A stretch of 64,000 nt of DNA, taken from Meghimatium bilineatum. Lineage: Eukaryota > Mollusca > Gastropoda > Stylommatophora > Philomycidae. Where the stretch lies: positions 54,700,357 through 54,764,356 of the forward strand of contig CM067322.1 of assembly GCA_034231615.1 (NCBI GenBank), written 5' to 3'. Below, one piece after another: positions 2,881 to 52,260 of this stretch (within the stretch, counting starts at the first letter, position 1; each line of letters opens with the position of its first letter). The notes beneath the pieces were generated by a model. It made no database searches, was not told the origin of the DNA, and saw only the letters and a list, made by a program, of their open reading frames with translations. The position numbers were made by a program, and so were the translations under genes.

Positions 2881-4185
2881 TGATGAAATTTTGATGTGTC
2901 TCTTTCTGATTTTATAATTCGCTTGAATTCACTCCATGGGCCATGGCTGCTATATATTGGGCTTTAGCTTATAATTACTTCACTAAGCTCAGTTATTGGG
3001 TCTAGATATATACTTATTTGTTATCATGCTTGTGCTTCGTGGTTCTGAAGAACCAGAACCTTCGGCTTATGTTACTGAAACAGGAGGTCTTTCCTTTCCA
3101 GGGAGCCATTGCAGAATGATGACCAATCTTATTTTGATGTATTTCAGATCAAGTATAATCTGGACTGTTACACTTTCATGTATATAACAACGATGTACCC
3201 ATCGTCGGACAGTGCAAATATCCACTGTCAATCTCCATAAACATTCTTCAAACGTTCATGAATGCAAATTGGGGTCTCGCTTTCATAATTAAGAAGTTCT
3301 ATGACACATATTTGTTTTAACCGTACTTCTTTGGCAGCCATTTTAAACGGTTACAGTATTGCAATCTTTTGTTAATAAAACAAGTTGGTTATGTTATACA
3401 GCGTAGAAGAGTGTTTGGGAATTCTCGCAAAATTATTGCACACCGATAAAGTATTTACTTAGATTTTAAAAAATCGATAACAAAATGACTATTCCTTCGT
3501 AATAACACTAATTTACGTCACAATCTCATATAGATTCGGCAACAGAGTTGGTACTATTCCTCCAACAAAATTGGTATTGTGATGTCCAATTTATACCCAG
3601 TAATTGCTTTAACACTTGCTGATCTAATAATGTATTCTTATTTTAGTGAATCTTGAAGCGCTCCAAATACAGGCGCCATATTCACAATAATATAGTAAAC
3701 ATAGAAAATATAGTTGAAATAGAAAATCATCTTACATGTAAAATCGCCGAATATCGTCGTGGCAGAACTACATCAACATCGATTTTCTTTGTTTTTCATG
3801 TTTGCAATATCTGATATAACCAGATATGACTACCATCTAAGGTTGAACGAATCGTTACCAGCCATATGAGGTACATTTTAATTTTAAAAATGTCTACACC
3901 ACTCCTTAACATAAAGTAAATTGGAACTGCCCACTCACAGCTCGTATAGAACTTAAAACTAAGAGCTAGGGAAATAATCAGACACCATCTGTTTATCCCC
4001 CTTTTAATCTATTCACATTGGCTATGTCTCCTTTTCCAATATTCACCCAACATCTGCTCACTAACCACCCACTCTTTCACTATCTCCTCACTCATGACCG
4101 GTCTATATACCTCCGACGGTCTCACCTCACTACATATATTCTCGGTCGCTAACTAAATTATCATTTCTTTAATATTTCATTGCGT
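2881..4185. other. AT-rich stretch with no recognised feature
   Basis: I see no open frame of meaningful length, no RNA gene and no repeat with another copy in the window. The last ~170 bases become pyrimidine-rich and grade into the TATC microsatellite. Confidence 0.5.
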
Positions 4186-5400
<1,215 letters not shown>

Positions 5401-5424
5401 ATATCTATCTATATATCTATCTAT

Positions 5425-5770
5425 CACTGAGATACACACACCTATTGATCTGGTATTCCTCGACATTATCTTGCAATATTTCTTGGAAGAGTGAAGTCTA
5501 GTTCGCAGAGTGTTTGCGATAATAAGTCCCCGTGTATGAGCAGTTGTCTGAATTGTTGCTTGTAGTTGGTTGCCTAGATCTTGAGCTAAAGTTGTTACAC
5601 AAGGTTGACTATGTGTGGTGTGGTGATTGGAGTACAATACCCCCCCCCCCATGAATCGTTGGTGCAGAAGTGCTATAGTAGACTGGTGAAAATTCAAATG
5701 TCTGGCAATTTCTCTGGTTGCCATTCCACTGACAACCATACCAGCAGCTTGCCATCGCTCTCATAACGAC
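5425..5770 (-). pseudogene. Tc1/mariner-like transposase N-terminus, fragment
   Basis: The reverse strand encodes a helix-turn-helix block 'SGMATREIARHLNFHQST' followed by 'HQRFM', then 'VTTLAQDL' and 'QLQATIQTTAHTRG' and 'LRTRLH'. This order is that of the paired-like DNA-binding domain of Tc1 transposases (typical protein ~340 residues; about 100 remain). The DDE catalytic domain is absent and a poly-C/poly-G run interrupts the linker. The fragment abuts the microsatellite, whose antisense adds a spurious tail to the open frame. I see no terminal inverted repeats. Dead copy. Confidence 0.7.
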
Positions 5771-6140
5771 AGTCGATGCATGAAAAAAAGCATTAACTTA
5801 CCTTCTTTCGTTAAAAACCTAATAATGCCCTTTATTCTCCTAAACTTTATTAATTCATGTGCCAAATTTCAACCTGTTTTGACTTTTAATAGTGTCAAAA
5901 TATGTTTATTTGTTGTTTTGAACATGAAGCGCAGAAAATGAGAAAGAAACATCACGTCAACAAAACAATGGAATTGCTCGAACTTAGTCACTCCCTCGCG
6001 TTCTGGGGATAAAGTTCTCCCTCACGTACATAAACATTGTAAGCGTGTAAACAAATCAAGTTTCCCATGCTTTTTTAATGGTTTCTAGTATATATATAAT
6101 AGATTATATTAGTGTAAATAAAAATACAATTAACCACTAT
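5771..6140. other. Spacer, no recognised feature
   Basis: AT-rich sequence between the Tc1 fragment and the 18-bp minisatellite. I recognise no gene, promoter or repeat copy. Confidence 0.5.
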
Positions 6141-6145
6141 AGAAA

Positions 6146-7780
6146 CACAAGCAACAGTTCACACACTAGCAACAGCTCACACACGAGCAACAGTTCACAC
6201 ACGAGCAACAGTTCACACACAAGCAACAGTTCACACACAAGCAACAGTTCACACACTAGCAACAGTTCACACACTAGCAACAGCTCACACACAAGCAACA
6301 GTTCACACACGAGCAACAGTTCACACACGAGCAACAGTTCACACACTAGCAACAGTTCACACACTAGCAACAGTTCACACACGAGCAACAGTTCACACAC
6401 GAGCAACAGTTCACACACGAGCAACAGTTCACACACGAGCAACAGTTCACACACTAGCAACAGTTCACACACTAGCAACAGTTCACACACGAGCAACAGT
6501 TCACACACGAGCAACAGTTCACACACAAGCAACAGTTCACACACTAGCAACAGTTCACACACTAGCAACAGCTCACACACAAGCAACAGTTCACACACGA
6601 GCAACAGTTCACACACGAGCAACAGTTCACACACTAGCAACAGTTCACACACTAGCAACAGTTCACACACGAGCAACAGTTCACACACGAGCAACAGTTC
6701 ACACACGAGCAACAGTTCACACACAAGCAACAGTTCACACACTAGCAACAGTTCACACACTAGCAACAGCTCACACACAAGCAACAGTTCACACACAAGC
6801 AACAGTTCACACACAAGCATCAGTTCACACACAAGCAACAGTTCACACACAAGCAAGTTCACACACAAGCAACAGTTCACACACAAGCAACAGTTCACAC
6901 ACGAGCAACAGTTCACACACGAGCAACAATTCACAGACAAGCAACAGTTCACACACAAGCAACAGTTCACACACAAGCAACAGTTCACACACGAGCAACA
7001 ATTCACAGACAAGCAACAGTTCACACACAAGCAACAGTTCACACACTAGCAACAGTTCACACACGAGCAACAATTCACAGACAAGCAACAGTTCACACAC
7101 AAGCAACAGTTCACACACTAGCAACAGTTCACACACGAGCAACAATTCACAGACAAGCAACAGTTCACACACAAGCAACAGTTCACACACAAGCAACAGT
7201 TCACACACAAGCAACAGTTCACACACAAGCAACAGTTCACACACAAGCAACAGTTCACACACAAGCAACAGTTCACACACTAGCAACAGTTCACACACGA
7301 GCAACAATTCACACACAAGCAACAGTTCACACACAAGCAACAGTTCACACACAAGCAACAGTTCACACACAAGCAACAGTTCACACACAAGCAACAGTTC
7401 ACACACAAGCAACAGTTCACACACAAGCAACAGTTCACACACTAGCAACAGTTCACACACGAGCAACAATTCACAGACAAGCAACAGTTCACACACGAGC
7501 AACAGTTCACACACAAGCAACAGTTCACACACAAGCAACAGTTCACACACTAGCAACAGTTCACACACAAGCAACAGTTCACACACTAGCAACAGTTCAC
7601 ACACAAGCAACAATTCACAGACAAGCAACAGTTCACACACAAGCAACAGTTCACACACTAGCAACAGTTGACACACAAGCAACAGTTCACACACAAGCAA
7701 CTTTTCATACACAAGCAACAGTTCACACACTAGCAACAGTTCACACACAAGCAACATTTCACACACTAGCAACAGTTCAA
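6146..7780. repeat. 18-bp minisatellite, about 90 copies
   Basis: The unit is AGCAACAGTTCACACACN, where N is mostly A, G or T (ACAAGC, ACGAGC or ACTAGC at the junction). The period is exactly 18, so frames stay open on both strands and give Ser-Asn-Ser-Ser-His-Thr or Leu-Leu-Leu-Val-Cys-Glu repeats. I regard these as artefacts of the period. Rare unit variants recur at multiples of 18: CAGCTCACAC near 6171, 6281, 6569 and 6768, and CAATTCACAGAC near 6927, 6998, 7071, 7143, 7465 and 7611. This shows amplification of multi-unit blocks. A 15-bp short unit near 6855 shifts the phase. Confidence 0.97.
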
Positions 7781-7789
7781 AAACCAATA

Positions 7790-8435
7790 ACAAACAAAAA
7801 CTCTATATAAACAATACACATCACAGGCGTGACAAATAAAAACATCAAGTAATATAAAACATACATAATAAACAAGGAACCATCTAGGGACAGTACACGC
7901 CACACATATAATAAACAACACTCTATAAAACGACAACACTACATTCATAATAAACAAGAAACACTCTATAAAAAGACGGAACCACATACATAACAAACAA
8001 GAAACAGTTTAAAAAAAAGACTACATACATAACAAACAAAAAACACTAAAAGTATAAAAATCAAGAGCATAATCACTCAAACATAACAAAACACTAAAAG
8101 AATAATAAAGAAGAACATATCGCATACAAACACAAACAAGCACTCACAGCATAGCACAGTATTAGAACATATTGCACACGCATACAGAAAATATTAAGCA
8201 TACTATTAAGCATAAAATTTAACCAAGAACGTAGACTTATCACACGCAAACAAAAAAAAAGACATACTTTAGAAACAGACAACATCACATACATAACACA
8301 CATACATTACGTACATAAACATACGCATACATAGCAAAACTAACAAACATTCACATATCGCGACCGTCGTCAGGTATAGGGTACATGTCAACTAAAACGT
8401 AAACATCAACTAGTTTTCGTTATGTGTGAAATCAT
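7790..8435. repeat. Degenerate A-rich tandem region
   Basis: Loose repeats with phrases such as 'cataataaacaa', 'cactctataaaa' and 'acatacataacaaacaa' recur at irregular spacing of roughly 40-50 bases. The phrase 'cataacaaacat' links it to the 28-bp array that starts near 8640, so it may be a decayed edge of the same tandem family. No gene is seen. Confidence 0.45.
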
Positions 8436-8439
8436 ATAT

Positions 8440-8580
8440 CGGTTGGTCTTAGCTATTTTTGGCATGCGACTCAAAGTAGGTAAATAGCGACCAGTTAAAT
8501 GTTCAAGAATAATCAAAAACGTAACGATCGGGGTCCAATTCATAATTCAGCTGTGCAGCCTGTACAGTCGAGAACCATGC
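8440..8580 (+). repeat. Copy of the fold-back element arm
   Basis: This segment contains 'tagctatttttggcatgcga', which occurs in reverse complement at 14600-14625. It also has 'aacgtaacgat.ggggtcca', which parallels 14835-14860. So a piece related to the 14.2-15.0 kb fold-back sits here between two tandem arrays. No coding potential. Confidence 0.5.
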
Positions 8581-8639
8581 ACATACACATCATACTTAAC
8601 ATACACATACACCACGTACATAAGCGTACACAAACATAA

Positions 8640-10250
8640 CATACTTAAAAAGATGCATATATACCACTAACATAACAAACATACTAATATACCACTAACA
8701 TAACAAACATACGAATATACCACTAACATAACAAACATACAGATACACCACTAATTTAACAAACATACTAATATACCACTAACATAACAAACATACGAAT
8801 ATACCACTAACATAACAAACATACTAATATACCACTAACATAACAAACATACGTATATACCACTAACATAACAAACATACTAATATACCACTAACATAAC
8901 AAACATACGAATATACCACTAACATAACAAACATACTAATATACCACTAACATAACAAACATACTAATATACCACTAACATAACAAACATACTAATATAC
9001 CACTAACATAACAAACATACAGATACACCACTAATTTAACAAACATACTAATATACCACTAACATAACAAACATACTAATATACCACTAACATAACAAAC
9101 ATACTAATATACCACTAACATAACAAACATACAGATACACCACTAATTTAACAAACATACTAATATACCACTAACATAACAAACATACAGATACACCACT
9201 AATTTAACAAACATACTAATATACCACTAACATAACAAACATACGAATATACCACTAACATAACAAACATACTAATATACCACTAACATAACAAACATAC
9301 AGATACACCACTAATTTAACAAACATACTAATATACCACTAACATAACAAACATACTAATATACCACTAACATAACAAACATACTAATATACCACTAACA
9401 TAACAAACATACAGATACACCACTAATTTAACAAACATACTAATATACCACTAACATAACAAACATACAGATACACCACTAATTTAACAAACATACTAAT
9501 ATACCACTAACATAACAAACATACTAATATACCACTAACATAACAAACATACGAATATACCACTAACATAACAAACATACAGATACACCACTAATTTAAC
9601 AAACATACTAATATACCACTAACATAACAAACATACAGATACACCACTAATTTAACAAACATACTAATATACCACTAACATAACAAACATACAGATACAC
9701 CACTAATTTAACAAACATACTAATATACCACTAACATAACAAACATACTAATATATCACTAACATAACAAACATACGAATATACCACTAACATAACAAAC
9801 ATACAGATACACCACTAATTTAACAAACATACTAATATACCACTAACATAACAAACATACAGATACACCACTAATTTAACAAACATACTAATATACCACT
9901 AACATAACAAACATACTAATATACCACTAACATAACAAACATACGAATATACCACTAACATAACAAACATACAGATACACCACTATTTTAACAAACATAC
10001 TAATATACCACTAACATAACAAACATACAGATACACCACTAATTTAACAAACATACTAATATACCACTAACATAACAAACATACTAATATACCACTAACA
10101 TAACAAACATACTAATATACCACTAACATAACAAACATACTAATATACCACTAACATAACAAACATACTAATATACCACTAACATAACAAACATACAGAT
10201 ACACCACTAACATAAGAAACACACATACACCAATAACATAACACACATAC
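8640..10250. repeat. 28-bp minisatellite with two interspersed unit types, about 56 copies
   Basis: Type 1 units read roughly CATACTAATATACCACTAA then CATAACAAA. Type 2 units carry CAGATACACCACTAATTTAA. Type 2 units recur singly, separated by one to several type 1 units. The longest type 1 runs are near 8760-9010 and 10040-10190. A change of T to G (ACTAAT to ACGAAT) marks a subset of type 1. 28 is not a multiple of three, so no long frame survives. Edges at 8585-8640 and 10200-10250 are degenerate. Confidence 0.95.
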
Positions 10251-10359
10251 ACATACTTGATACATCAGGAACTTTCACCTTCTTTATGTCACTATTCCTT
10301 CACAAATAATGTAATAAAAAATGTAACCTTTCGATGAAAGAACGTCATATCCTGGTATT

Positions 10360-10462
10360 TATATCATCATCATCACCATCACCATCACCATCATCATCGT
10401 CATCATCATCATCATCACCATCATCATTACCATCATCACCATCATCATCATCATCATCATGC
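10360..10462. repeat. (ATC)n/(CACCATC)n microsatellite
   Basis: Trinucleotide run read directly. The serine/proline-rich open frame across it is a by-product. The adjoining 10466-11160 holds no recognised gene. It contains a poly-C tract (10750-10766) and the phrase 'aggcctttcggtcgaaacgt' (10962-10981) discussed as a separate finding. Confidence 0.9.
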
Positions 10463-11164
10463 TTGTGGCTCCTAGTCCACTTTGCACCTAATAGATATGT
10501 CATTTCGTCTGCTATTCATTGTTTTCTATTTATATATCGGCTGTTCTTCACATGCATGATGCATCTCTCTACATCCACACTTGTCACTTAGTGTAATGTA
10601 CATCCTCAGCTGCTGCTAAAGGGCCATATGTACGACCTTGGTTATGCTAACTAATCTCGTCCTTTTTCAGATATATATTGATGCTATATACGAACATTTT
10701 CTTCGCTTTTCATATGGACAAGCACGGAAATACAGGGAACGAGGAATCCCCCTCCCCCCCCCCCCCAGGAAATAACAATAAGTCACGTTTTAAAATTGTT
10801 TTGGGGTTGTTTTTGTATATTTCCTATTTCTGTACATTTCATGTGTGTGTGTCTCATGTGATATAATTTCTATCCTTCCGGCCATCGCGCTAGACATGTG
10901 AACGCAAGTTGTGTCGTCTCTACTTGTTTTTGATCTATACGTGTATGTAATCCTTGATATAGGCCTTTCGGTCGAAACGTCGATTTGTGTGTATGCTCCC
11001 ATGTGTGTTTCATGTTATTAGCAATACTTCATTACCCCGTTTCACGATTTACCTGTTGGATTTCAGTTTTGCGCAGTGAATACATATTTTCACTCAATAA
11101 CTTTGTAGCTTTTTCGCTGCATTTCTACACTTTTTCCATCAGTCTCAAAAAGTATTATAAAGGT

Positions 11165-11390
11165 ATAGAGGAGTGATATCTTCCCACTCTGATTTCCCCA
11201 CACGTACTGCATATTTGTCTACAGTACATGCAGAGTACCACTCATAACCCGTACTTGCAGATTTAAAAGATAATTCTCAAGATTCCCTGGAAACACGCAA
11301 ACAAGACGTCACAGTCGGACATTAAACCTGCGACCTCTTGACCACATCGCAAATGTCTTAACCACTCTATCACGGATAACCCTGGGAATT
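11165..11390 (-). repeat. tRNA-derived SINE, family C (degraded)
   Basis: Reading the reverse strand from about 11388, a tRNA-like head shows an A-box-like 'gatagagtggttaag' and, about 30 bases on, a B-box-like 'ggtttaatgtcc'. It is followed by a body with 'gtgacg', 'ccactcataac' and 'actctgatttcc' blocks, written here in plus-strand sense. The same body occurs at 25838-26100 and 54010-54210. Pol III internal promoters of this kind define tRNA-derived SINEs. The cloverleaf is not intact, so this is not a tRNA gene. Confidence 0.65.
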
Positions 11391-11940
11391 CCCTCTGTTT
11401 TTATTCAATAAAAGTGCTTGTCTTGTGTTTGTCTCCTCTGTTGTTTTTTTACCCAATAAATACGTCCATACTTGCGTGTATTTCTCTCTCTCTCTCTCTT
11501 TTATATCAAATAGCTACCTCACCGCCTCCCGCCCTATACTTTCCTTTATATCTATCTACTCATTCTCTCCCTCACAATAATTTTCTTCATATCTCTCTAC
11601 TCGTTCTTTCCCTACTTTTTTCAGTAAATCGAATTGAAATTGAAAATAAAAAGATTTGTCCATCTCCTTTCTTAATCTTATTTGATTGACGAGCTGTCCG
11701 CATCCCATACTCCCCTAATGATGTACTCTGTTCCTTTCTCTTGCAAACTCTCTATTTATCTGTGCTTCTCTCTTATCCACTCTACAACTTTCGCATTGTT
11801 TTAATCACTCAACAAATCTCTCTTTAGCTATGTTGCTTTCTTTGTGTATCTCATGTTATCACATTACTTTCTACCTGTCTATGATTCCTTTGCCTTTGTA
11901 TATGGTCACATCTCTATCTCTCTGAGATAATCGTATCTGT
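11391..11940. other. Pyrimidine-rich stretch, no gene
   Basis: CT-rich sequence with phrases such as 'ctctctactcgttctttccc' loosely repeated at irregular intervals, including a (CT)n run at 11485-11500. Possibly an old, decayed tandem array. Open frames here are short, compositionally biased and unsupported. Confidence 0.4.
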
Positions 11941-11944
11941 ATCA

Positions 11945-13215
11945 TTTTCATTAAGTGCCGTCTCCTCAACGAAGGTTGGCTGCAACGTATCTCCAACGTC
12001 CCCTGTCTCTTGTCTTGGTGTTGCACTCTGCTAGACTGTAACCTGTCCATCGTGTGATGTTACTCTCCCATTTGTATCCCTGCCTACCTCTTGCTCGATT
12101 CATTTGACTTTACCCTTAAGTAAGGTCTTCAATAAGGTGTCACGTCTTTTAAATTGTCCAAAATACTTTATTTGCCTGATCTTTATTTCTCTTAGTAGTT
12201 CTTTCTTCATATTAAGTGTTTTAGTACCTCTTTATTTGTTTTATTCTCTTTCCATGATGTTCTCCCTATTCTTCTATATACCCACATCTCAAAGGCATCA
12301 ACTCTGTCTTCTAATTGTTTATTTAGTGTCCATGTTTCTGAGCCATGCATTAAGAAAAAAATAGACGTAGCATTTTATAATTCTTATTTTTAACTTTTAT
12401 GTAATTTGTTTAGATGTTAATATTTTCCTCATGTCATTGAAGGTACTTTAAGCCATTCCTATTCTCCTTTTAACTTCTGTTTCATATCTGCCATCATTTG
12501 TGACTATGTGTCCAAGATATTGGTAATATTTTACTTGTTGTAGTTTCTCTCCATGTATGTTTATGTTTACCTTTTGTTCTTCTGTGTCTTTGATGATTAT
12601 CATGGTTTTTGTTTTTTGGATATTTATATATTTTGTATTTTGGGTATTTTTTCCATATTTATTACTTGATTTATTGACTTGACTTAGTGTAGTCTTTGTA
12701 GTTCATGTTCACTTTCTGCCAAAAGAAAAGTGTCATCTGCATATCTAAGGTTGTTTATTGTTTTCCCACTGATCTTGAGTCCTAGTATTTCTTCTATATT
12801 TTTAAAGATATTCTCTGTGTAGATATTAAATAGGCTTGGTGATAAAATGCATCCTTGTCTTACCCCTCTTCTTATTTCTATGTATGGTGAGTAGCTATTT
12901 TCACACCTTATTGATGCAGTCAGTATATATTTCTAATCAATTTGATGTCTTTTCCATTTAAATCTATTTCTTGAAGACATTTGATTAATTTTTCATGTAA
13001 AAGGCCTTGGTGTAGTCTATGAAGGAAATATAGATACTTTTTTGGACTTCTATATATTTATCTATCACTAGTCGGATACTCAGTATAGCTTATCTGGTTC
13101 CTTTGTTTACCCTAAAACTTAATTTTCTTCACAGAGCTCCATGTCTATCTTGTTCTTAATTCTTTCATGTATTATCTTGAGGAATATTTTAGTTAAATGA
13201 CTCATTAGACTTCAT
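11945..13215 (-). pseudogene. Degraded LINE: RT core to 3' end
   Basis: On the reverse strand, in order from 13215 down, I can read blocks of a non-LTR reverse transcriptase: 'LTKIFLKIIHERIKNKID', 'CFIDYTKAF'-like motif A (near 13010), 'KQGCILSPSLFNIYTENI' (near 12850), 'INNLRYADDTFLLAESEH' (catalytic YADD, near 12740), and then the C-terminal 'TGYSLAECTT'-type ending near 11990 with 'CGDGT' just before the stop. Frameshifts and stops occur throughout. The endonuclease half is absent, so the copy is 5'-truncated. It is the fullest member of the family also seen at 1125-1325 and 57835-57962. Confidence 0.85.
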
Positions 13216-20253: not shown

Positions 20254-20892
20254 ACCAACTTCAGCGCTAGTCATTTCTCAACCCATTTACTTAGTGAAAC
20301 GCGGCTTGCAGATGAGGGTCAGTTGACAGAGAGAGGTGGAGGGTATACATTCTTCTGGATAGGACGTAAAAACACAGAGAGGCGTGAATCAGGTGTTGGT
20401 TTTGCTATAAAATCATCTCTGGTGCAGAAACTTCCAGGTCTGCCTCGAGGAATTAGCGATCGCTTGATGTCGTTGCGATTGAAAGTGAGCAAAAATAACT
20501 TTGCCACATTACTTTCTGCATATGCGCCGACAATGACAAATCCTGATGAGGAAAAGGATAAATTCTATGAAGAGTTAGATGCCGCTATATCTGGTACACC
20601 GAGAACTGATAAACTCATTATCCTGGGTGATTTCAATGCCCGAGTTGGCAAAGACTCCCAGACATGGCAAGGTGTTCTTGGACGTCATGGGATCGGTAAA
20701 TGTAACAGCAATGGTTCCCTTCTTTTAAAGCTATGTTCTGTGCACGAACTCACTATCACCAACACTATGTTTCGTTTGCCAACGCGCAAAAAGACCTCTT
20801 GGATGCATCCACGCTCCAAGCATAGACTATATCATAACCAGAAAAAGGGACATCAAAGATGTTTGTGTCACAAAAGCAATGTGTGGAGCTGA
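20254..20892 (+). pseudogene. LINE APE-type endonuclease domain, 5'-truncated and frameshifted
   Basis: The frame is open from 20254. Homology begins at 'LSETRLADEG' (about 20290), the block holding the catalytic Glu of apurinic-like LINE endonucleases. It continues through 'ISDRLMSLRL', 'SAYAPTM', 'LGDFNARVG' (Asp/Asn of the GDFN motif, about 20628) and 'LTNT.FRLPTR'-like and 'TSWMHPRSKH' blocks. At about 20817-20825 the coding continues in another frame ('DYIITRKR', then 'WTDHRL', the Asp-His catalytic pair), so one small indel separates endonuclease from RT. The N-terminal ~60 residues, with the first catalytic Asn motif, are missing. The protein would normally nick target DNA to prime reverse transcription. 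This copy is unlikely to do so. Confidence 0.85.
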
Positions 20893-23344
20893 ATGCTGGA
20901 CTGATCACCGGCTTATAGTATCCAAACTAAATTTCACCATTGCAAGAAAAAGACGTCCACAGGGACAAAAGATAGAAAAACGCCTAAACACTGATCGGTT
21001 GAGTAACCACGATATAAAAAATAATCTCTCCAAGGATCTCGACGTAGCCTTGGGAGACTTAGATCTTCTTAATACCACATCTGAAGATAGCTGGGCTTCG
21101 TTTAAAGGAATTATTTACGCCAAAGCGAAGGAACATTTGGGAGTGAAGGTACATAAACACCAAGACTGGTTTGATGATAATAATTTTGAGATAACATCCT
21201 TGTTGGAAGAGAAACACAAAGCTTTCAAGAAACTACAAGGGGCAGCATCTTCACCGTCCAAGAAAGTAGCCTATAACAAGATCCGTAACACTTGTCAAAA
21301 GAAGCTTAGAGAGATAAAGGATAAATGGCTAAGTCGAAAAGCTGAAGAAATTCAAATGTTTGCAGACAGAAAGGACTATAAGCGATTCTATGAGGCTTTA
21401 AGAACTATCTATGGTTCACACTCATCGGGATCACCACCTCTATTAAATGCCGATTCGTCGAAGCTTCTCACTGATAAAAATGACATCTTAAATCGTTGGG
21501 CTGAACATTTTGAAGAAATCCTAAACAAACCATCAGTAATAAATGAAGAAGTCATAAACAGAATACCACAACTTAGGATAAGAGAAGAACTCGATATACC
21601 CCCAAGCAGTCAAGAGGTTATTATAGCGATTAAACAAATGTCAAATGATAAAGCTCCAGGTTTGGATGCCTTACCTGCTGAAATTTATAAAAATGGCGGA
21701 CCACTGCTGATTAAAAAACTAACTGACATTTTTGGTATTTTCTGGAACTCAGGTACATTGCCTCAAGATCTAAAAGATGCTTCTATAGTGCACCTATATA
21801 AAGGCAAAGGTACCAAACAGTCTTGCGATAATCATAGGGGCATATCACTTTTGTCTATAGCTGGTAAAATTCTCGCTCGTGTCATACTCAACAGATTAAA
21901 TAATTCTCTACTAAACGAGCTACTCCCAGAGAGTCAGTGCGGTTTTCGTGCAGGTCGTGGTACAGTTGATATGATATTTTCTGCACGACAAATTCAGGAA
22001 AAGTCACAAGAGCAACATAGTGAACTCTTAGCAACATTTGTGGACTTAACTAAAGCATTCGATACCGTTAACAGAGAAGGACTGTGGAAGGTGCTTACAA
22101 AGTTCGGATGCCCCCCAAAACTTGTCACTGTGATACGACAATTTCATGACGGTATGATGGCTAGTGTTATCTGCGACGGAGGAGTATCTCCTGCATTCCC
22201 TGTCACAAATGGTGTAAAGCAGGGATGTGTGCTGGCCCCTACTCTTTTCAGCCTGTTATTTACAGCCATGTTAACGGAAACACACCATAGTAATGAAACA
22301 GCAGGCATAATGATCAATTACAGAACGGATGGTGGTCTTTTCAATTTACGTCGTCTAAAAGCAAACACGAAAACTAAATCTAGTACTGTTAGAGAATTAC
22401 TTTATGCTGACGACTGTGCATTGTATGCTGACTCTGTCGTAAACATGCAGAGCACCATAGACCGCTTCTCAAAGGCCTGCAACAACTTTGGTCTCACTAT
22501 TAACACCCAAAAAACAGAAGTCATGCACCAAGCAACATCAAATAGCCAACATACTGCTACTTCCATCATCGTCAATCAGGAAAAACTGCAGGTAGTCGAC
22601 AATTTTACTTACCTTGGGAGCACTCTCTCTCGCGATGTCAACATTGATGTGGAAATTAACAATAGACTGGCAAAAGCTAGTGCTGTATTTGGCAGATTAC
22701 GCAAAAATGTATGGGACAGAAGAGGTATAAGAACAACCACCAAACTACAAGTATATCATGCTGCTGTTATACCAACCTTACTATACGCCTGCGAAACGTG
22801 GACAGTGTATGCTAGACATGCAAGAAAGTTAAATCATTTCCATCTTACCTGCCTACGTAAATTACTAAACATCCATTGGTGGGACAAAGTACCAGACTAC
22901 GAGGTGTTGGAAAAATCAACATCAATAAGCATCCACACAATACTTATGAAGGCGCAGGCACGCTGGGCAGGCCATCTTGTGCGTATGGAGAACTCTCGTT
23001 TGCCAAAACAAATATATTATGGAGAACTCAAGGCAGGATTTCGAAAAGCTGGTGGACAGAAAAAGCGTTTCAAAGACACGCTCAAGTCATCCTTGAAACA
23101 TCTTAACATTGACGTAGGCGCTTGGGAGAGCCTCGCTCAGGATAGAACAGCATGGCGTTACAGCATTAGAACGGGAGCACTAGCGGCAGAAGAATTCAGA
23201 CAAGAAACTGCAAGACAGAAGCGGACACGTAGAAAAGAAAAAGCATCTCAACCTCACACAGATACCTTCTATTGTTGTCAACTCTGTAAAAGAACATTTT
23301 GTGCGCGCATTGGACTTGCTAGTCATTTAAAAACTCACTATTAA
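20879..23344 (+). CDS. LINE reverse transcriptase ORF, 821 codons, with C-terminal C2H2 finger
   Basis: This is the longest non-repetitive frame in the window. From the first ATG: endonuclease end with 'TDHRLI' (residues ~10-15); linker; RT domain with 'PGLDALPAEIYKNGG' (~260), 'NHRGISLLS' (~320), 'QCGFRAGRGTVDMIF' (~360), motif A 'FVDLTKAFDTV' (~386), 'GVKQGCVLAPTLFSLLF' (~444) and catalytic 'LLYADDCALYAD' (YADD at 509-512). Then come 'FTYLGSTLSRD' (~578), 'LLYACETW' (~638), 'HLTCLRKLLNIHWWDKVPD' (~660), an 'RWAGHLVRM' block (~695), a basic tail, and a C-X2-C-X12-H-X3-H finger (~800-820) just before the stop. The real translation start lies upstream in the endonuclease, and the ATG at 20879 is only the first in this frame. 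It copies the element's RNA at a nicked target. It has no RNase H. No internal stop, so the copy is relatively young. Confidence 0.9.
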   Translation: MCGAECWTDHRLIVSKLNFTIARKRRPQGQKIEKRLNTDRLSNHDIKNNLSKDLDVALGDLDLLNTTSEDSWASFKGIIYAKAKEHLGVKVHKHQDWFDDNNFEITSLLEEKHKAFKKLQGAASSPSKKVAYNKIRNTCQKKLREIKDKWLSRKAEEIQMFADRKDYKRFYEALRTIYGSHSSGSPPLLNADSSKLLTDKNDILNRWAEHFEEILNKPSVINEEVINRIPQLRIREELDIPPSSQEVIIAIKQMSNDKAPGLDALPAEIYKNGGPLLIKKLTDIFGIFWNSGTLPQDLKDASIVHLYKGKGTKQSCDNHRGISLLSIAGKILARVILNRLNNSLLNELLPESQCGFRAGRGTVDMIFSARQIQEKSQEQHSELLATFVDLTKAFDTVNREGLWKVLTKFGCPPKLVTVIRQFHDGMMASVICDGGVSPAFPVTNGVKQGCVLAPTLFSLLFTAMLTETHHSNETAGIMINYRTDGGLFNLRRLKANTKTKSSTVRELLYADDCALYADSVVNMQSTIDRFSKACNNFGLTINTQKTEVMHQATSNSQHTATSIIVNQEKLQVVDNFTYLGSTLSRDVNIDVEINNRLAKASAVFGRLRKNVWDRRGIRTTTKLQVYHAAVIPTLLYACETWTVYARHARKLNHFHLTCLRKLLNIHWWDKVPDYEVLEKSTSISIHTILMKAQARWAGHLVRMENSRLPKQIYYGELKAGFRKAGGQKKRFKDTLKSSLKHLNIDVGAWESLAQDRTAWRYSIRTGALAAEEFRQETARQKRTRRKEKASQPHTDTFYCCQLCKRTFCARIGLASHLKTHY

Positions 23345-23424
23345 CTTTATTATTTTATTATTTATTGTTATTATTATTATGGTTGAGTTTTTGGTCATCG
23401 TCGATCACGACGGACGAACATCAT

Positions 23425-24545
23425 AGACTATCTATTACTTCTGTTACTCCAACCTGTTCATTCCAATCACTGTATAAACTATCTATTACTTCGGTTACTT
23501 CAACCTCTTCATTCAAATCACTGTATAGACTATCTATTACTCCTGTTACTCCAACCTCTTCATTCAAATCACTATATAGACTATCTATTACTTCTGTTAC
23601 TCCAACCTGTTCATTCCAATCACTGTATAGACTATCTATTACTTCTGTTAATCCAACCTAATCATTCCAATCACTGTATAGACTATCTATTACTTCTGTT
23701 ACTTCAACCTCTTCATTCCAATCACTATATAGACTATCTATTACTTCTGTTACTCCAACCTCTTCATTCCAATCACTGTATAGACTATCTATTACTTCTG
23801 TTCCTCCAACCTGTTCATTCCAATCACTATATAGACTATCTATTACTTCTGTTACTCCAACCTGTTCATTCAAATCACTGTACAGACTATCTATTACTTC
23901 TGTTACTCCAACCTGTTCATTCCAGTCACTGTACAGACTATTTATTACTTCTGTTACTCCAACCTGTTCATTCCAATCACTGTATAGACTATCTATTACT
24001 TCTGATACTCCAACCTCTTCATTCCAATCACTGTATAGACTATCTATTACTTCTGTTCCTCCAACCTCTTCATTCCAATCACTGTACAGACTATCTATTA
24101 CTTCTGTTACTCCAACCTGTTCATTCCAATCACTGTATAGACTATCTATTACTTCTGTTACACCAACCTGTTCATTCCAATCACTATATAGACTATCTAT
24201 TACTTCTGTTACTCCAACCTCTTCATTCCAATCACTGTATAGACTATCTATTACTTCTGTTCCTCCAACCTGTTCATTCCAATCACTGTACAGACTATCT
24301 ATTACTTCTGTTCCTCCAACCTCTTCATTCCAATCACTATATAGACTATCTATTACTTCTGTTATTCCAACCTCTTCATTCCAATCACTGTATAGACTAT
24401 CTATTAATTCTGTTACTTCAACCTGTTCATTCCATTCACTGTATAGACTATCTATTACTTCAGTATCTTCATTCCAGCCACTGAATATACGATATGTTAT
24501 TTCAATCTATTCATTTCGACGAATTTGTAGATCAATTATCATTTC
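23425..24545. repeat. 51-bp minisatellite, right segment, about 20 copies
   Basis: Continues the unit seen at 19888-20184 with variants CCTCTTCATTC/CCTGTTCATTC, TTACTCC/TTCCTCC and TGTATAG/TATATAG/TGTACAG. The same variant combinations recur at several-unit spacing, indicating local block duplications. The last copies (24465-24545) decay. Confidence 0.95.
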
Positions 24546-28120: not shown

Positions 28121-28124
28121 AAAA

Positions 28125-28490
28125 AAAACATTATTCAGCTAACGGGATTTAAACCAGTTCCGCTTAGATGGTACCCTCTCGCCTCGTAACTTGAGTCAAC
28201 ACGTTTTCGGTCTTCGACCGCACCGAATACCTAAAAGAGATATAATTTATACAGAACTTTCAACGTGTATATTCTCAAGCTACTATGAGTATGATTGACA
28301 CACAAACAACAGCAACATACATACACTTCGCAAGTATACCTATGTAAATTCCATGAGAACCACTCACATTCGTCATTAGTGCGATCCATAAAGTCTCAGT
28401 ACTTCCAATGAAAGATTATACCTACTCATAAACATAAATACTTCATAGACATACACACGGTTGCTTCAGGTGTGATGCGAATAATGAAAA
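28125..28490 (-). repeat. SINE-like family E copy 1
   Basis: Plus-sense blocks 'acgggatttaaacca', 'gcctcgtaacttgagtcaac', 'cgaccgcaccgaatacct', 'cacacaaacaacagcaaca', 'agtctcagtacttcc' and 'ggttgcttcaggtgtgat' occur in the same order as at 41480-41890. Read on the reverse strand, the first of these blocks would be the tRNA-like head (B-box-like 'ggtttaaatcc' region). This copy has no coding frame. Confidence 0.65.
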
Positions 28491-34104: not shown

Positions 34105-34460
34105 AGCTCCGCTCTAAGTTAAAACAGAGAGCATGATAGACCCTGACACGGGTTCTCCTCCTGCTTGCATCAATTCAGCAATCAATTTGACGCACTTTGG
34201 TGACTTGCCACTTATCAAGTTTTTAGTGCTCAACATACTTCTCCTATGATGGACTCTGCTTCAAGTTATGTGCATCTACATATATCCTTATGTCTTATCA
34301 TATGTAAACAAAATTCATTTGTATCATATGAAAGAAATTTTTCATATAGTTCACAAATACTCAAAAACATTGGGACTAAATATCAGCCTTGACAAAACTA
34401 ATGTGCTGAAATGGAACATCATTCATGAAAACCCTTGGAAATAGATGATGACACGATGAA
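34105..34460. pseudogene. Two small LINE RT scraps in opposite orientation
   Basis: Minus strand 34200-34115 reads 'KLIAELMQAGGEPVSGSI', resembling the 'AEL.KAGGEP' block at the start of LINE RT domains. Plus strand 34320-34450 reads 'FSYSSQILK' and, after a shift, 'LGLNISLDKTNVL', resembling the post-YADD 'FGL.I...KTEV' block. Both are short and degenerate, and their opposite orientation suggests rearrangement or separate insertions. Confidence 0.4.
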
Positions 34461-34492
34461 AGTGATTTACTTTACCTTGTTCCATTGTTAAT

Positions 34493-35105
34493 GGTTGGTT
34501 GCTGATCCAGCGGTCAATGTGCTCATGTCCTTTGACCTAATGCCATTAAATGGCATTATATTGCTGGGAAGTCTGTGGATTTTCGGTCAACCCCGGGATA
34601 GAGCCAGAGAATAACTATCACACCTCCAGGAAGGTAGGTTTCAACCTATGCACTGCCCCGAGCCACTGCAACCAAGATAGGGTTCACTGTGCTTATTCCC
34701 CGCCACCAATTGACTACTGGTTATGCCGAACTTCTCTATTGCTCCAGACATGCAACCAAATGTTTAAGTCAAAAGGATTGTCACGTCCTGAGTCACTGTG
34801 CCTCTATGATGGGTCTCATCCATAGGAAAAAGCAGTGCTGTCAGTTTCTTCCTCCCCAGTGCTGCACAGTACATCTCTGGCTCCCTCCCAACCACAGAGG
34901 GCGCATACATATATATTCAGGTAAACATGAAACATATTTCAACAACAAAATAAAAAGCATAAATGTATAGATGACGTGCCGTGAAGCTTCTATAAGAAGA
35001 TAACCTCAATATAACGACATGTCATCCACTAAGGTTTTCTGTTGTATGGGTGGTTTGTCTAGTGGGCCATTGGCGAGACCCACAGACGCAACCACATGCG
35101 TTTCT
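34493..35105 (+). mobile_element. Family A element, short form, with 9-bp TSD
   Basis: Begins GGTTGGTTGCTGATCCAGCG and ends with 'gagacccacag' followed by 'cacatgcgtttct'. ATTGTTAAT flanks both sides (34484-34492 and 35106-35114), a perfect 9-bp target-site duplication. Internal blocks: 'ctaatgccattaaatggcat', 'tgctgggaagtctgtggatt', 'ccccgccaccaattgactac', 'ggttatgccgaacttctcta', 'attgtcacgtcctgagtcac', 'tcctccccagtgctgcacag' and 'caacaacaaaataaaa'. No terminal inverted repeats and no conserved frame (the ~90-codon frames differ between copies). Compared with 43875-44886 it lacks ~400 internal bases. It shares its internal short-form junction with 51496-52114. Confidence 0.85.
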
Positions 35106-35114
35106 ATTGTTAAT

Positions 35115-35815
35115 AAAACAGGAGGAAATGAAAACGACCTAAAAGCTAGGATTTACAAAGCCAGAACAACATTTCAACCTTTTTTAAACAATTGAGAACG
35201 AAAGATATAAACCTACACGCCTACAATTATAATCTTTTTTATAGATACGAAGACATGTTTTCTGTATGCCTAAGAAACCTGAAAATAAAACGCTAAAACA
35301 TAAACTACATACATGTGTTACATACATGAATAACTGCTTAAGAATACTAAACATTTGGTGTCAGAATTGGATGAGAATTGAAGAAATATAGAGATAAATA
35401 GACCAAGATGTGATGGAAGCAAGATTAAGGAAAGAAATTAGAGATGGGACACACAAAAACCAGCAGAAGTTATAGCTAGAATAATAATATGAAACCAACA
35501 AGGAAAATGGAAATAAAAAAACATAGGAACACATGCAAAAGAGAGACCATGAAGAAGTCGATGCACATGTGAATCGCTTGGACTGTAGATGAACAAAATT
35601 CACGAACATAAACAAATAGAAAATCCGCTTTCGTAGCCTATGCATCCGAATGTGTAAAAACATTACGTGACTCAAAATATTGAGTGATTGAAAAACCCCA
35701 TCCTACTAAAGTTTTATATAGTAAGTAAAATAAAGTTAATCCATATCATTTATAAATGCCGCAGGGATATGATATGTTAGCGATCTCACATTTCATTGAC
35801 TCTGCTATATGAGGG
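35115..35815. other. Unannotated stretch
   Basis: AT- and A-rich. No repeat partner or gene is recognised. A minus-strand frame at 35361-35675 is compositionally hydrophobic and serine-rich but unsupported. Confidence 0.4.
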
Positions 35816-41479: not shown

Positions 41480-41890
41480 GTGGCTAATAAGGATTATATC
41501 AAGAAATATAAAGACATTGAAGATTTATTATTGAAGAACAATCACAATGCAGCAAACAGGATTAGAATCAGGTCAGATCAGATGGCACCAATTTGCCTCG
41601 CAAATTGAGTTAACATGTTTTTGGAAATCGACCACACTGCATACCTAAAGAAAGTTGCGATTTTAGTCAAGAGTCAAGACAACCAACATGTATTTTCCCA
41701 ATCTTTTCGTAAATATTGACAGGTCACTGGACACACAGACAACAACAACAACGCACATTGAACAAGTATTTAAATAAATTCCCCGTTAACCACAAACATT
41801 TTAAGTGCCAGAAGGCCTCAGTACTACAACAACAAATTAAGCCTACTTGTAAACATAAATAACACATAAACATGGTTGCTTCAAATGTGA
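41480..41890 (-). repeat. SINE-like family E copy 2
   Basis: Plus-sense blocks: 'caggattagaatcaggtcag', 'gcctcgcaaattgagttaac', 'cgaccacactgcatacctaa', 'agaaagttgcgattttagtc', 'cagacaacaacaacaacgca', 'ccagaaggcctcagtac', 'aaacataaataacacataaa' and 'catggttgcttcaaatgtga'. Inverted relative to 42160-42915, with which it shares every block. The tRNA-like head is at its left end in plus coordinates. Confidence 0.75.
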
Positions 41891-41893
41891 CAT

Positions 41894-42155
41894 ACGTAAG
41901 TGCATAATCTAATATAGATGAATCGATTACATATTACATGTGGCATGAGTAAGTGCATAATCTAATATAGATGAATCGATTACATATTACATGTGACATG
42001 AGTAAGTGCATAATCTAATATAGATGAATCGATTACATATTACATGTGACACAAGTAAGTGCATAATCTAATATAGATGAATCGATTACATATTACATGT
42101 GGCATGAGTAAGTGCATAATCTAATATAGATGAATCGATTACATATTACATAGAA
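41894..42155. repeat. 53-bp minisatellite, 5 copies, between inverted SINEs
   Basis: Units start at 41896, 41949, 42002, 42055 and 42108 (exact 53-bp spacing). Each begins GTAAGTGCATAATCTAATAT, continues 'agatgaatcgattacatatt' and ends in 'acatgtgacatga' or close variants. The 'atgtgaca' portion matches the end of the adjoining family E element, so the unit likely arose across the element's 3' junction. Confidence 0.9.
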
Positions 42156-42159
42156 AAAT

Positions 42160-42915
42160 CATATGCGTCTATATTATATTATTCATTTACCCATGTCACA
42201 TCTGAAGTAGCATTGTTTATGTGTTGTTTACGTTTAAATGTAGGCATAATTGGATCTGATACTAATGAGGCCTTCTGGCGATCATTAATGTTTGTAGTCC
42301 TCGAGGAATGGACATACTCGTGCAGTGTGTGTGTTATTGTTGTATGTGTGTTGATGCATCAGTCAATATTCACATTAGCTTGAGAATATACACGTTGGAA
42401 GTCTTGATACAAATCTAAACTTTCTTTAGGTGGTTGATGATCCAGCGGTCCATGGGCTCATGCTCTTTGAACCAACTTTCTTTAGATGGATGCTGATCCA
42501 TCGGCCCATGGGCTCGTACTTCTTGAACCAACTTTATTTAGATGGTTGCTGATCCAGCTGTCCATGGACTCATGCTCTTTGACCCAAATTTCTTTAAATG
42601 GTTGCTGATCCAGCTGTCCATGGACTCATGCTCTTTGACCCAAATTTCTTTAAATGTTTGCTGATCCAGTGGTCCATGGGCTCATGCTCTTAACCAAACT
42701 TTCTTTAGGTGGTTGATGATCTAGCGGTCTAAGGACTCATGCTCTTTGTCCCAACTTTCTTTACATGGTTTCTGATCCAGCGGTGCATGGACTCATGCTC
42801 TTTGACCAAACTTTATGTAGATGTGCGGTGTTATCTGCGACATGCTGACTCAAGTTGCCAGCGAGTCTGTGTCATCTTAGCGCACCTGGTCCAAATCCTG
42901 TTTCCTTCATTATGA
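42160..42915 (+). repeat. SINE-like family E copy 3, split by a minisatellite
   Basis: Part 1 (42170-42432): 'atgtcacatctgaagtagca', 'tgaggccttctgg', 'ttattgttgtatgtgtgttg' and 'agaatatacacgttgg', ending 'aactttctttaggt'. Part 2 (42810-42915): 'aactttatgtagatgtgcgg', 'tgactcaagttgccagcgag' and 'ggtccaaatcctgtttcctt' (B-box-like end). The unbroken relative at 41480-41890 is collinear across this point, so the 42433-42809 material was inserted and amplified there. Confidence 0.75.
42418..42828. repeat. 56-bp chimeric minisatellite, 7 copies
   Basis: Each unit consists of 'aactttctttag' (family E sequence) followed by 'gatggttgctgatccagcgg', 'tccatgggctcatgctcttt' and 'gaacc' (the 5' end of family A elements, compare 34493 and 43879). 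Starts near 42418, 42474, 42530 and onwards every 55-56 bases, with 1-8 substitutions between units. The last unit runs back into family E sequence. Confidence 0.9.
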
Positions 42916-43870
42916 GTTTTCCTTAAAAAACATAAACATCACACGAATAGAAATATAAAATAGAAATATAATAAACAACTTACAACGCTCTCACCAAGAG
43001 TAATATTAATGGGAGACATATATGTATTTGTGTGTTGGACATGCGATTATATACATAGTACAGAGGCGTCTGTTTTTCTTGCAATTATCATTTCTTCATC
43101 TGTATGATACTGGTTAGAATTAACTAGTGTGTGTTCATAAACGTAATCCACATTGTCATATATGTAAACGCTATTATAATATTGTTGACCATCACCTCTT
43201 CAAATGTAAAGCGTTGAATGATATCAGAAAAAAAGTCTCCTTCCCCAAGGATAACACAAATGAGCATACTATATGAAACAACGTATGTATGCCGTCACGA
43301 GTTTCTTCTTCATTGGACTAGTGCCTTTTATGCTTTTGCCCTCTGACGTAATGGCATGCAGTGGTATGTGTGTTTGGCAGTTATTCTCGCTACTTAAATC
43401 TAAATGCAAGAGTAGTTTCACAGCATCTACATAGTACTTACAGCAAGATACAAGAGCCCCCTCCTTCTTCCCCCCCCCCGAATACATCAGTATGTTTGAT
43501 AGATAGGGAAAAGATTGTACCAAGAAGTTAAAAAATGCACATTGCAGTGAGTTCCAAATAAGTCTTGAGATTGACACAGCGTAAACACCACTTCCTTTTG
43601 ACATTTGAATGACAATATATGTTGTGACTGTCATATCTCAACATTTGTGGTTTAATTCCTGGTTCGATCAATCGTACAGTTTTCTCAGTCGTTAACAGGT
43701 AAGTGGAACTTTGACAACGTTTTTTTACTTTCTCGGAACTGCCTGTGAAAACATTTCTTCTGTGTAATTGTTTAATATTTTCCAAGAATTTAACACATTA
43801 TGTAATGGCTGTAATTACTTATTGTCTACATTATATTTCCTGAAACTGTAGAATCTTGCCCGAGGGAGCT
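42916..43870. other. Unannotated stretch
   Basis: AT-rich. Two overlapping minus-strand frames (43269-43634 and 43528-43785) are in different phases, have no recognisable domain and no codon or repeat support. A poly-C tract lies at 43470-43479. Confidence 0.4.
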
Positions 43871-43874
43871 TGAT

Positions 43875-44886
43875 GGTTGGTTGGTTGCTGATCCAGCGGT
43901 CCATGGGCTCATGCCCTTTTACCTAATGCCATAAAATGGCATTATATTGCTGGGAAGTCTGTGGATTTTCGGTCCACCTCAGGACAGATCCAGAGAATAA
44001 CTATCACACCTCCAGTAAGGTAGGTTTCAACCTATGCACTGCTCCTAGCCACTGAAGTCAAGATAGGGTTCAATGTGCTCATTCCCCGCCACCAATGGAC
44101 TACTGGTTATGTCGATCTTCTCTATTGCTCTAGGCATGCAACCAAATGTTCAAGTTAAAAGGATTGTCACGTCTTGAGTCACTGTGCCTCTATGATGGGT
44201 CTCAGCCATAGGAAAAAACAGTACTATCAGTTTCCTCCTCCCCAGTGCTGCACAGTACATCTCTGGTTCCCTCCCAACCACAGAGGGAGCATATATATTC
44301 ATATATACATACATATATACATATACATATACACATATATATGGGCCAACCAGTTCATCATTCTTCCGTCAGCTTTGGCAGTCTGACAGGATGTGACATT
44401 CCTTGGATACAGCCGCACTCGAATGTCTCTCTTCAGAGACTAAACATAAACCATCCTACCACAACCATGCCCAATGACTGACTACAAGCATCATACGCGC
44501 TTGGGTGGCACATCGGTTGGTGGGCTGGGAAAGACTTGCGCTTTTGTCAGAATGGTTACGGGCTGTCATGCTCTACATGCTCATAGCTGCTTGTTTAATT
44601 TTGTTTGTTTGAGAATCCCAGGAATTGCGAGCCATTAGCTCTTACTTCCAATATGCAGTGGGGTGGTTTTTCGTAGCATTCTTTCATACCCATGAGACTT
44701 CAGATTTCGACTTAGTGCAATTCCTATTAAAGGAGCCTTCTACTTCGAGGTGTCTATAATTGTATAGATGACATGCTACAAAGCTTCCATAAGAGAGTCT
44801 CAATATAACGGCATGTCATCTACTAAGGTTTTCTGTTGCATGTCAAGTGAGACATTGGTGAGACCCACAGATGCAATCGCATGCGT
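43875..44886 (+). mobile_element. Family A element, long form
   Basis: Begins GGTTGGTTGGTTGCTGATCC, follows the same order as 34493-35105 up to 'aaccacagagggagc', then runs through ~500 bases absent from the short forms: a TA-rich stretch, 'gggccaaccagttcatcatt', 'gcagtggggtggtttttcg' and 'ccttctacttcgaggtgt'. It rejoins at 'tgtatagatgacatgctaca', 'cctaagg'-type sequence, 'gagacccacagatgcaat' and 'cgcatgcgt'. I could not identify a clear target-site duplication. The long-form 3' half also occurs alone at 18869-19165. Non-coding. Confidence 0.75.
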
Positions 44887-46186: not shown

Positions 46187-46255
46187 CATGCATATATCAC
46201 ACAATGGCATTGCTTCAAAGGCCATGAGCCCAAAGACCGCTGGATTAGTAACCAA
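46187..46255 (-). repeat. Family A element, 5' end only
   Basis: The reverse complement reads GGTTGGTTACTAATCCAGCG, 'gtctttgggctcatgg' and 'cctttgaagcaatgccattg'. This is the first ~70 bases of family A. Nothing of the rest follows. Confidence 0.7.
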
Positions 46256-46589
46256 CCAAGCAACTTCATTTCAGAAAACATCTATTTAAAAACAGTGGAT
46301 TTGGAATCTACCCGTATGGAATAATGATTTGAATAACTTCCCCTAAATTCCAATGATTTCACAATAGAATATGATAAGTCTATTGCTCGTAAGTATACAG
46401 AATAAGAAAACTATAACCTGATTGTAAAATCTAGTCAAGATACAATTTATTTCTTAAAGGACATCAACAAGCAGGGGCACAATGAGCCACATTAATACAC
46501 ACACACACGCAATGAGAAGTCCGTTTAGTCTTCAGGGCAGTAATATTTCGGCCACTTCTACATTAAAATAAGCTACACATTTATACAGA

Positions 46590-51495: not shown

Positions 51496-52114
51496 TCGCA
51501 TGCGTTTCCATCTGTGGGTCTCACCAATGGCCCACTGGACAAACGACCCATCCAACAGAAAACCGTAATAGATGACATGCCGTTATTGTGTTTATCTTCT
51601 TATAGAAGATTCATGGCACGTCATCTATACAATTATGCTTGTCGTGATTTTATTTTGTTGTTGCAATGCTATTTTATTCTTTATTATTGTTATATATGTA
51701 TGCACCCTCTGTGGTTGGGGGGGAGTCAGAGATGTACTGCGCAGCACTGAGGAGGAGTAAACTGACGACACTGTCTTTTCCAAAGGTTGAGGCCCATCAT
51801 AGAGGCACAGTGACTGAGGACGTGACAATCCTTTTGACTTGAACATTTTGTTTCATGCCTAGAGCAATAGAGAAGTTCGGCATAACCAGTAGTCAATTGG
51901 TGGCGGGGAATGAGCATAATGAACCCTATTTTGGCTGCAGTGGCTCGGGGCATTGCATTGGTTGAAACCTACCCTCCTGGTGGTATGCTAGATATTATCT
52001 GGTTCTGACCCGAAGTGGGCCTAAAATCAACAGATTTCCTAACAATATAATGCCATTTTAATGACATTAGGTCAAAGGGCATGAATCCAAGAACCGCTAG
52101 ATCAGCAACCAACC
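51496..52114 (-). mobile_element. Family A element, short form, inside a minisatellite, with 12-bp TSD
   Basis: The reverse complement begins GGTTGGTTGCTGATCTAGCG and ends 'gagacccacagatggaaacg' + 'catgcga'. AAGAACTAACAT occurs at 51484-51495 and 52115-52126. The 619-bp body is collinear with 34493-35105, including the short-form internal segment ('caacaacaaaataaaa', 'tgtatagatgacgtgcc'). The duplicated 12-mer also forms part of the array unit, so a duplication and pre-existing repeat copies are not separable by eye. The ends agree with the copy at 34493, whose 9-bp duplication is independent. Confidence 0.85.
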
Positions 52115-52260
52115 AAGAACTAACATGATTAGCAAGTAGTAGAATGATGAGATTCCTGAAGTAACATGATTGATAAGCTGGAGGATGACACGAATTAAAA
52201 ACTAACAGGATTGGTAATCTATAAGATGACGATATTGGTGAACTAATATGTCTATGTAAC
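52115..52260. repeat. ~40-bp minisatellite, right segment (diverged)
   Basis: 'aactaacatgattagcaagt', 'agaatgatgagattcctgaa', 'gtaacatgattgataagctg' and 'aactaacaggattggtaat': further, more diverged copies of the unit at 51120-51440. Confidence 0.75.

Follow-up and report, generated by a model that had tools for sequence, protein, structure and literature searches.

A minisatellite of Meghimatium bilineatum probably started by the target-site duplications of a truncated retroposon insertion, and its counterparts across the genome

In the genome of Meghimatium bilineatum, severely 5'-truncated retroposon insertions have very probably started minisatellites, with their own target-site duplications (TSDs) serving as the short direct repeats. 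Our starting point was a seven-unit array in a 64,000-nt stretch of contig CM067322.1 (the window, i.e. the whole stretch of DNA analysed), in which every unit consists of a short stretch of the surrounding repeat followed by the end of a mobile element. Paralogous copies of the surrounding repeat show the empty site, comparable arrays with different TSDs recur across the genome, and the units within arrays carry private variants in common.

Tandem Repeats Finder reported the array at 42418-42823 with a period of 56 (7.3 copies, 83% matches, score 546), and its units start at 42418, 42474, 42530, 42586, 42642 (the 55-bp unit), 42697 and 42753, the register past the 55-bp unit having been set by eye. 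Each unit joins 12 nt of family E (AACTTTCTTTAG) to about 44 nt that match the end of family A, aligning to A ends near 43882 and 34496 and, on the minus strand, to 52111 and 46254. Seven units of about 56 bp composed of 12 nt of E and about 44 nt of an A end, with matching ends of family A near 34493 and 43879, had already been described in a first-pass annotation of this DNA, and Tandem Repeats Finder and the alignments bore out both points. The same annotation had let the array run to 42828; the last 12-mer stops at 42820, and positions 42821-42828 are E flank already. Mean unit identity is 85.5%, which puts the window array among the more diverged of the arrays that we compared. As a driver of amplification, the DNA secondary structure of the unit appeared weak (z -1.37; 20 of 200 shuffles equally good). 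The E copy that hosts the array is itself one arm of a palindrome (window 41480-42431), in which two E arms form an inverted repeat (68% over 781 nt) around a central tandem array of five 53-bp copies at 41885-42151.

The window array holds eight 12-mers for seven units (n+1), the outermost one being followed by E again. When the E sequences on the left and right were matched to a common E query, the two matches overlapped at query positions 105-118, i.e. at the 12-mer and 2 further nt. Four E copies cross the insertion point uninterrupted (41500-41760 and 28123-28317 in the window, and one each at L056 and L052); the first of these, which also supplied the query, is the copy that had been said to be unbroken at the same point, and it does carry the 12-mer. 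All of them except the query itself are 63-68% identical to it, a comparison among old paralogues, and through them the short repeat is found once at the ancestral site, for the window array only. Given that the E sequence beyond the array starts again with these 12 nt and that four E copies are unbroken there, the 12 nt of E is a TSD, and we read the array unit as one insertion plus one TSD. That the 12-mer might be native to family A, which the first-pass annotation had named as grounds for giving up its own account, was tested and rejected, since A, B and array copies elsewhere carry other sequences at this place; the second such ground, an array older than both elements, is excluded for E only, by the E homology on both sides.

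The account given in that annotation was that of an amplified junction of family A nested in family E, a chance result of the nesting of transposable elements. An A-like piece that went into an E copy and was then amplified is the half of this account that we retain, and the unit does hold sequence of both families. The other half, in which the junction of two nested elements is what became repeated, is in our judgement very improbable: a TSD-sized overlap with E was found on both sides, the E part behaves as a TSD, the transposable-element host being incidental, the linkers elsewhere differ, and the inserted domain is also present in family B.

Table 1. Positions in the window of the array, its flanking and uninterrupted E sequences, and copies of families A and B.
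Feature	Positions	Strand	Basis or remark
Seven tandem units (56, 56, 56, 56, 55, 56, 56 bp)	42418..42808	- (inferred element sense)	Sequence, Tandem Repeats Finder, alignment
Eighth, outermost copy of the TSD (AACTTTATGTAG), then E again	42809..42820	.	Sequence, E alignment, flank test
Left-hand E sequence, up to and including the first TSD copy	42323..42429	+	BLAST match 42323-42431 to E query 1-118
E right of the insertion, from the last TSD copy	42809..42929	+	Match to E query 105-233
Uninterrupted E copy with the 12-mer (paralogous empty site; query for E comparison)	41500..41760	-	E alignments
Long family A copy, about 608 nt, with terminal domain	34493..35100	-	Sequence
Oppositely oriented long copy of family A; by eye, TSD ATGTTAGTTCT on both sides	51497..52115	+	Sequence
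Family A copy, far end running into an (AT/AC)n tract	43879..44290	-	Alignment
Family B terminal domain, different body, same 45-nt end	46204..46262	+	Element continues to lower coordinates

The inserted 44-nt piece is best read as the 3' end of a retroposon, common to families A and B, its retroposon nature and orientation being suggested by features of the copies themselves. The piece matches the ends of three long A copies in the window, at 34493, 43879 and 52116, and two of these copies have TSDs of 11-13 nt by eye (e.g. TTC(C/T)ATTGTTAAT, at 34480-34492 and 35102-35114, around the copy at 34493-35100), and with TSDs of their own at two long copies we take A to be an element of about 608 nt. 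Family B shares the 45-nt end with A and occurs at 46262-46204 in the window and at L035, L045, L052, L053, L055 and L060; its copies end at varying distances from the common end, and those at L053 and L045 have TSD-like flanks by eye. A (TTGG)n run lies at the end common to A and B. A common end, variable other ends, a tail run and TSDs are features of non-LTR retroposons, in which the common end is the 3' end, and A, B and the short copies of about 45 nt (minis) display a constant end with a tail, variable truncation and TSDs of variable sequence. The piece had been called the 5' end of family A, a label that we do not keep for a domain which A and B have in common and which resembles a retroposon's tail end. 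In this probable orientation, a 49-nt RNA is predicted to form a pair of neighbouring hairpins with the tail after them (-17.9 kcal/mol), a fold only moderately better than chance (z -1.94; 8 of 200 shuffles as good), and the minis start 2 nt before the first stem. A tRNA-derived SINE head for A gained no support: ARAGORN found no tRNA in the window, a search that a degenerate head would escape, and Rfam returned nothing near gathering score over 34300-35300, where a degenerate pol III head would likewise be missed. By eye, no partner LINE with a reverse transcriptase on this 3' end was seen among the top 45 frames of at least 130 codons. An open frame of 871 codons (window 20729-23341) has, by eye, the look of a non-LTR reverse transcriptase, and is followed by a 51-bp array at 23423-24461.

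Arrays of the same end recur throughout the genome, which comprises 1.61 Gb in 32 contigs, with the window on contig 25. The query was a doubled consensus of the window's own unit, which favours the window's truncation point and unit length, and 40 of 1817 candidates were scored, so that these counts are lower bounds. At least 102 matches were obtained, which clustered by eye into the window and at least 37 other places. Two or more adjacent copies of the end are present at 36 of these 37 (at the exception, L045, there is a B copy and, apart from it, a single mini), and the array is thus not a single example. The number of units per array ranges from 2 to at least 23 (L034, which runs past the fetched end), unit spacing from 49 to 70 nt, and mean unit identity from 76% to 100% across arrays. 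Linker sequence is locus-specific in most arrays, and in a few loci only the tail lies between copies. Short unamplified minis exist as well: twenty random 10-kb stretches (one of them, L046, with about 5 kb of masked bases) contained six copies of the terminal domain, in these small numbers four B-like copies and two minis, both of which end at GACCCA. By eye, one of the two (L059:4015) has a clear 15-nt TSD with one indel and the other (L062) no clear TSD, while the single unamplified mini at L045:872-915 has a TSD of 11 nt. Three arrays (L015, L031 and L014) have unit lengths divisible by three (57 and 63 nt) and have two or more reading frames that stay open over hundreds of codons, which makes them a trap for gene prediction. 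The window also has dense tandem arrays of widely differing period (4, 18 and 56 bp) at 4195-10256, together with a strong strand asymmetry, the GC skew being about -0.48 over 4001-12000.

The outer flanks of 36 arrays, with the window included and L034 and L045 left out, were tested for TSDs by comparing the 32 nt that precede the first GCTGATCC, which take in the tail, with the last copy's end plus the right flank; mismatched left and right pairings served as the null, and its 99th percentile as the threshold. Twenty of the 36 arrays scored above this threshold, where about 0.4 would be expected, and the window array scored 8.5, a value reached by 0.0103 of the null. Matched stretches were 9-16 nt long, and 11-13 nt in 15 of the 20 passing arrays, lengths that may include one or more bases of chance agreement. 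In 12 of these 20 arrays the offset of the match start from GACCCA was 0 or 1, and in the others it ranged from -7 to +6; for one passing array (L011) the best match lay in simple sequence, out of register. The 16 arrays that failed at the 99% level count against our reading; they comprise six in which a long A is the last copy (L021, L024, L027, L036, L040, L044) and ten others, perhaps old (L016, L019, L020, L028, L035, L037, L038, L039, L041, L042). In a gapped version, scores of at least 9 were reached by 27 of 36 comparisons of the first inner linker with the right flank (null 11/1296), and by 16 of 37 comparisons of the left with the right flank (null 20/1332).

These flanks also bear on the idea that the array is an internal tandem repeat of a longer relative of A or B that moved as a block. 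Many mobile elements carry internal tandem repeats, and similar arrays are indeed dispersed across the genome, but the linkers differ between loci, the outer flanks match each other in the 20 arrays above, and a comparison of 400-nt flanks (E 1e-4) found no pair of loci with both flanks in common on the same strand. We therefore rejected an array carried inside a mobile element on account of its locus-specific linkers, which equal the host flanks in most arrays tested, and give a block move next to no credence. Single common flanks are frequent and look like dispersed repeats; examples are the A body, which lies next to six loci, and a stretch of 284 nt that L015 and L027 have in common on the left.

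To date amplification relative to insertion, seven loci (L017, L021, L024, L027, L036, L040, L044) were set apart by anatomy before divergence was measured, and the 30 arrays compared include the ten flank-test failures without a long A, as well as L034. Divergence of the 36-nt core had a mean of 0.077 and a median of 0.056 within the 30 arrays, and was 0.145 between arrays. Substitutions common to all units numbered 1.0 per array, against a null mean of 0.088 and a maximum of 0.33 in 2000 draws; at least one private substitution common to all units was present in 20 of the 30 arrays and none in 10. Since their units have private substitutions in common, we conclude that the 30 arrays were amplified after insertion, and, taken together, they fit expansion from one founder unit.

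The same data speak to repeated insertion, in which each unit would be a separate retroposon insertion into a regenerated target, as in the double-insertion model. This model predicts the TSD that is seen between units, and multimers may have formed at insertion where minis are joined by the tail (L017) or a mini is joined to a long A (L021, L024, L036, L040, L044). We nevertheless consider it unlikely, as the observed rate of private substitutions was never reached in the null draws, variants common to all units in two thirds of the arrays (20/30) argue against double insertion, divergence between units of one array is roughly half of that between copies in different arrays, and many identical events would be required to build arrays that reach at least 23 units with a single truncation point. 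Taken together, the units of the 30 arrays do not behave as independent insertions, and double insertion could have made the first dimer in some arrays. The seven set-apart loci have a mean divergence of 0.137, near the between-array value, with individually low values at L017 (0.056), L027 (0.067) and L024 (0.083); it is possible that some of their parts come from different RNAs and that multimers formed at insertion.

Joins without a TSD are clearest at two of these loci. At L017, two minis are joined by the tail only and the TSD lies outside both, and at L040 a mini is joined through its tail to a long A, beyond which the left flank recurs, with a score of 12 at 586 nt against 11 for the 99th percentile of the null, and by eye as a 12-nt match (AGCAAGTTAATG) directly at the end of A. 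We suggest that these two loci may be template-jump products of a single insertion. Bibillo and Eickbush, in 2004, are said to have described end-to-end template jumping by the R2 reverse transcriptase, a process that by analogy would account for mini-to-long-A and mini-to-mini joins with no TSD between them. L024 has a clear outer TSD (score 13; by eye ATGTATTTCTAGT); a clean template jump was dropped for this locus, as its two copies have the tail variant TTGGTTGA and a core variant in common, and local duplication may be as likely as a template jump. The gapped flank comparison gave no significant outer TSD at L021, L027, L036 and L044. Less clear tail-joined composites are L021, L024, L036 and L044.

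The course of events that we propose would begin with the RNA of a non-LTR (target-primed) retroposon that has two small hairpins and a (CCAA)n tail at its end. A severely 5'-truncated copy of about 45 nt would have inserted into an E repeat, presumably by target priming, and made a 12-bp TSD, whose two copies, 44 bp apart, could act as the short direct repeats from which a minisatellite starts. The insert together with one TSD would then be duplicated by slippage or by unequal exchange between the TSDs, and the array may have grown to seven through later exchange between whole units, with their longer homology. The same course of events would have been followed at many other sites. Only tentatively do we entertain the further idea that the domain of about 45 nt is the smallest mobile unit within its retroposon system, with uniform 45-nt copies placed genome-wide as ready-made minisatellite seeds; the 5' end of the minis would then lie at the base of the 3'-terminal double hairpin, where reverse transcriptase perhaps protects or stalls.

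A scheme of this kind is known from Haber and Louis, in which short direct repeats around one motif give a first duplication by slippage or unequal exchange and longer homology then sustains growth (as outlined in PMC6947457, PMC3389668). Both cases have short direct repeats flanking a single motif that becomes the repeat unit; here, in contrast to the scheme as outlined there, the repeats would be the insertion's own TSDs, mostly 11-13 bp, and a uniform founder of about 45 nt recurs. Among human tandem repeats derived from transposable elements, 300 of 7,276 are reported to be flanked by direct repeats of 5-20 bp and 136 to have a partial Alu beside a full one, with only 6% assigned to established mechanisms, in a survey in which neither TSD nor target site occurs as a term (PMC3389668). 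McGurk and Barbash (2018; via PMC9659126, PMC12628747) put forward double insertion of transposable elements as a substrate for satellite DNA, which, as relayed there, also places a TSD between tandem copies but mainly concerns DNA transposons reinserted at one site; here, unlike in double insertion, most copies arose by amplification, given the private variants common to units. RTE elements of Lepidoptera are described with 3' ends that bear short tandem-repeat tails, with TSDs of 6-12 bp and with abundant 5'-truncated copies (PMC2887409). Tails, TSDs and 5' truncation are thus in common, a likeness only and no family assignment, whereas the tails there are microsatellites and the available part of that account contains no amplification of a 3' domain with its TSD. 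In the limpet Patella, the satellite PcH-Sat is reported to come from a Nin-SINE (PMC11121367), an instance of a SINE-derived tandem repeat, with no kinship to A and B implied. The open-licence literature consulted yielded no case in which TSDs link arrays of a single uniform short retroposon end, which is weak evidence of novelty. The process is of a known kind, though exceptionally clean and often repeated here, and it is a useful variant on account of its uniform founder, its TSDs and its recurrence within a single genome.

The starts of minisatellites are poorly explained, and here one genome offers some thirty arrays of differing age and length, with 2 to at least 23 units and a mean unit identity of about 82% to 100%. 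All began from almost the same founder of 45 nt, and in many a TSD particular to the array can be recognised, so that these natural replicates allow comparisons of rate, of spacing and of TSD length. If the repeated truncation point is upheld by an unbiased survey, it would pose a testable question on reverse transcription across 3' hairpins, and if the seed reading is true, the birth of a minisatellite from a known founder would be replicated naturally dozens of times in this genome. The recurrence of such arrays elsewhere in the genome, many with a landing-site sequence of their own, suggests that small repeat arrays have repeatedly been born by small retroposon insertion.
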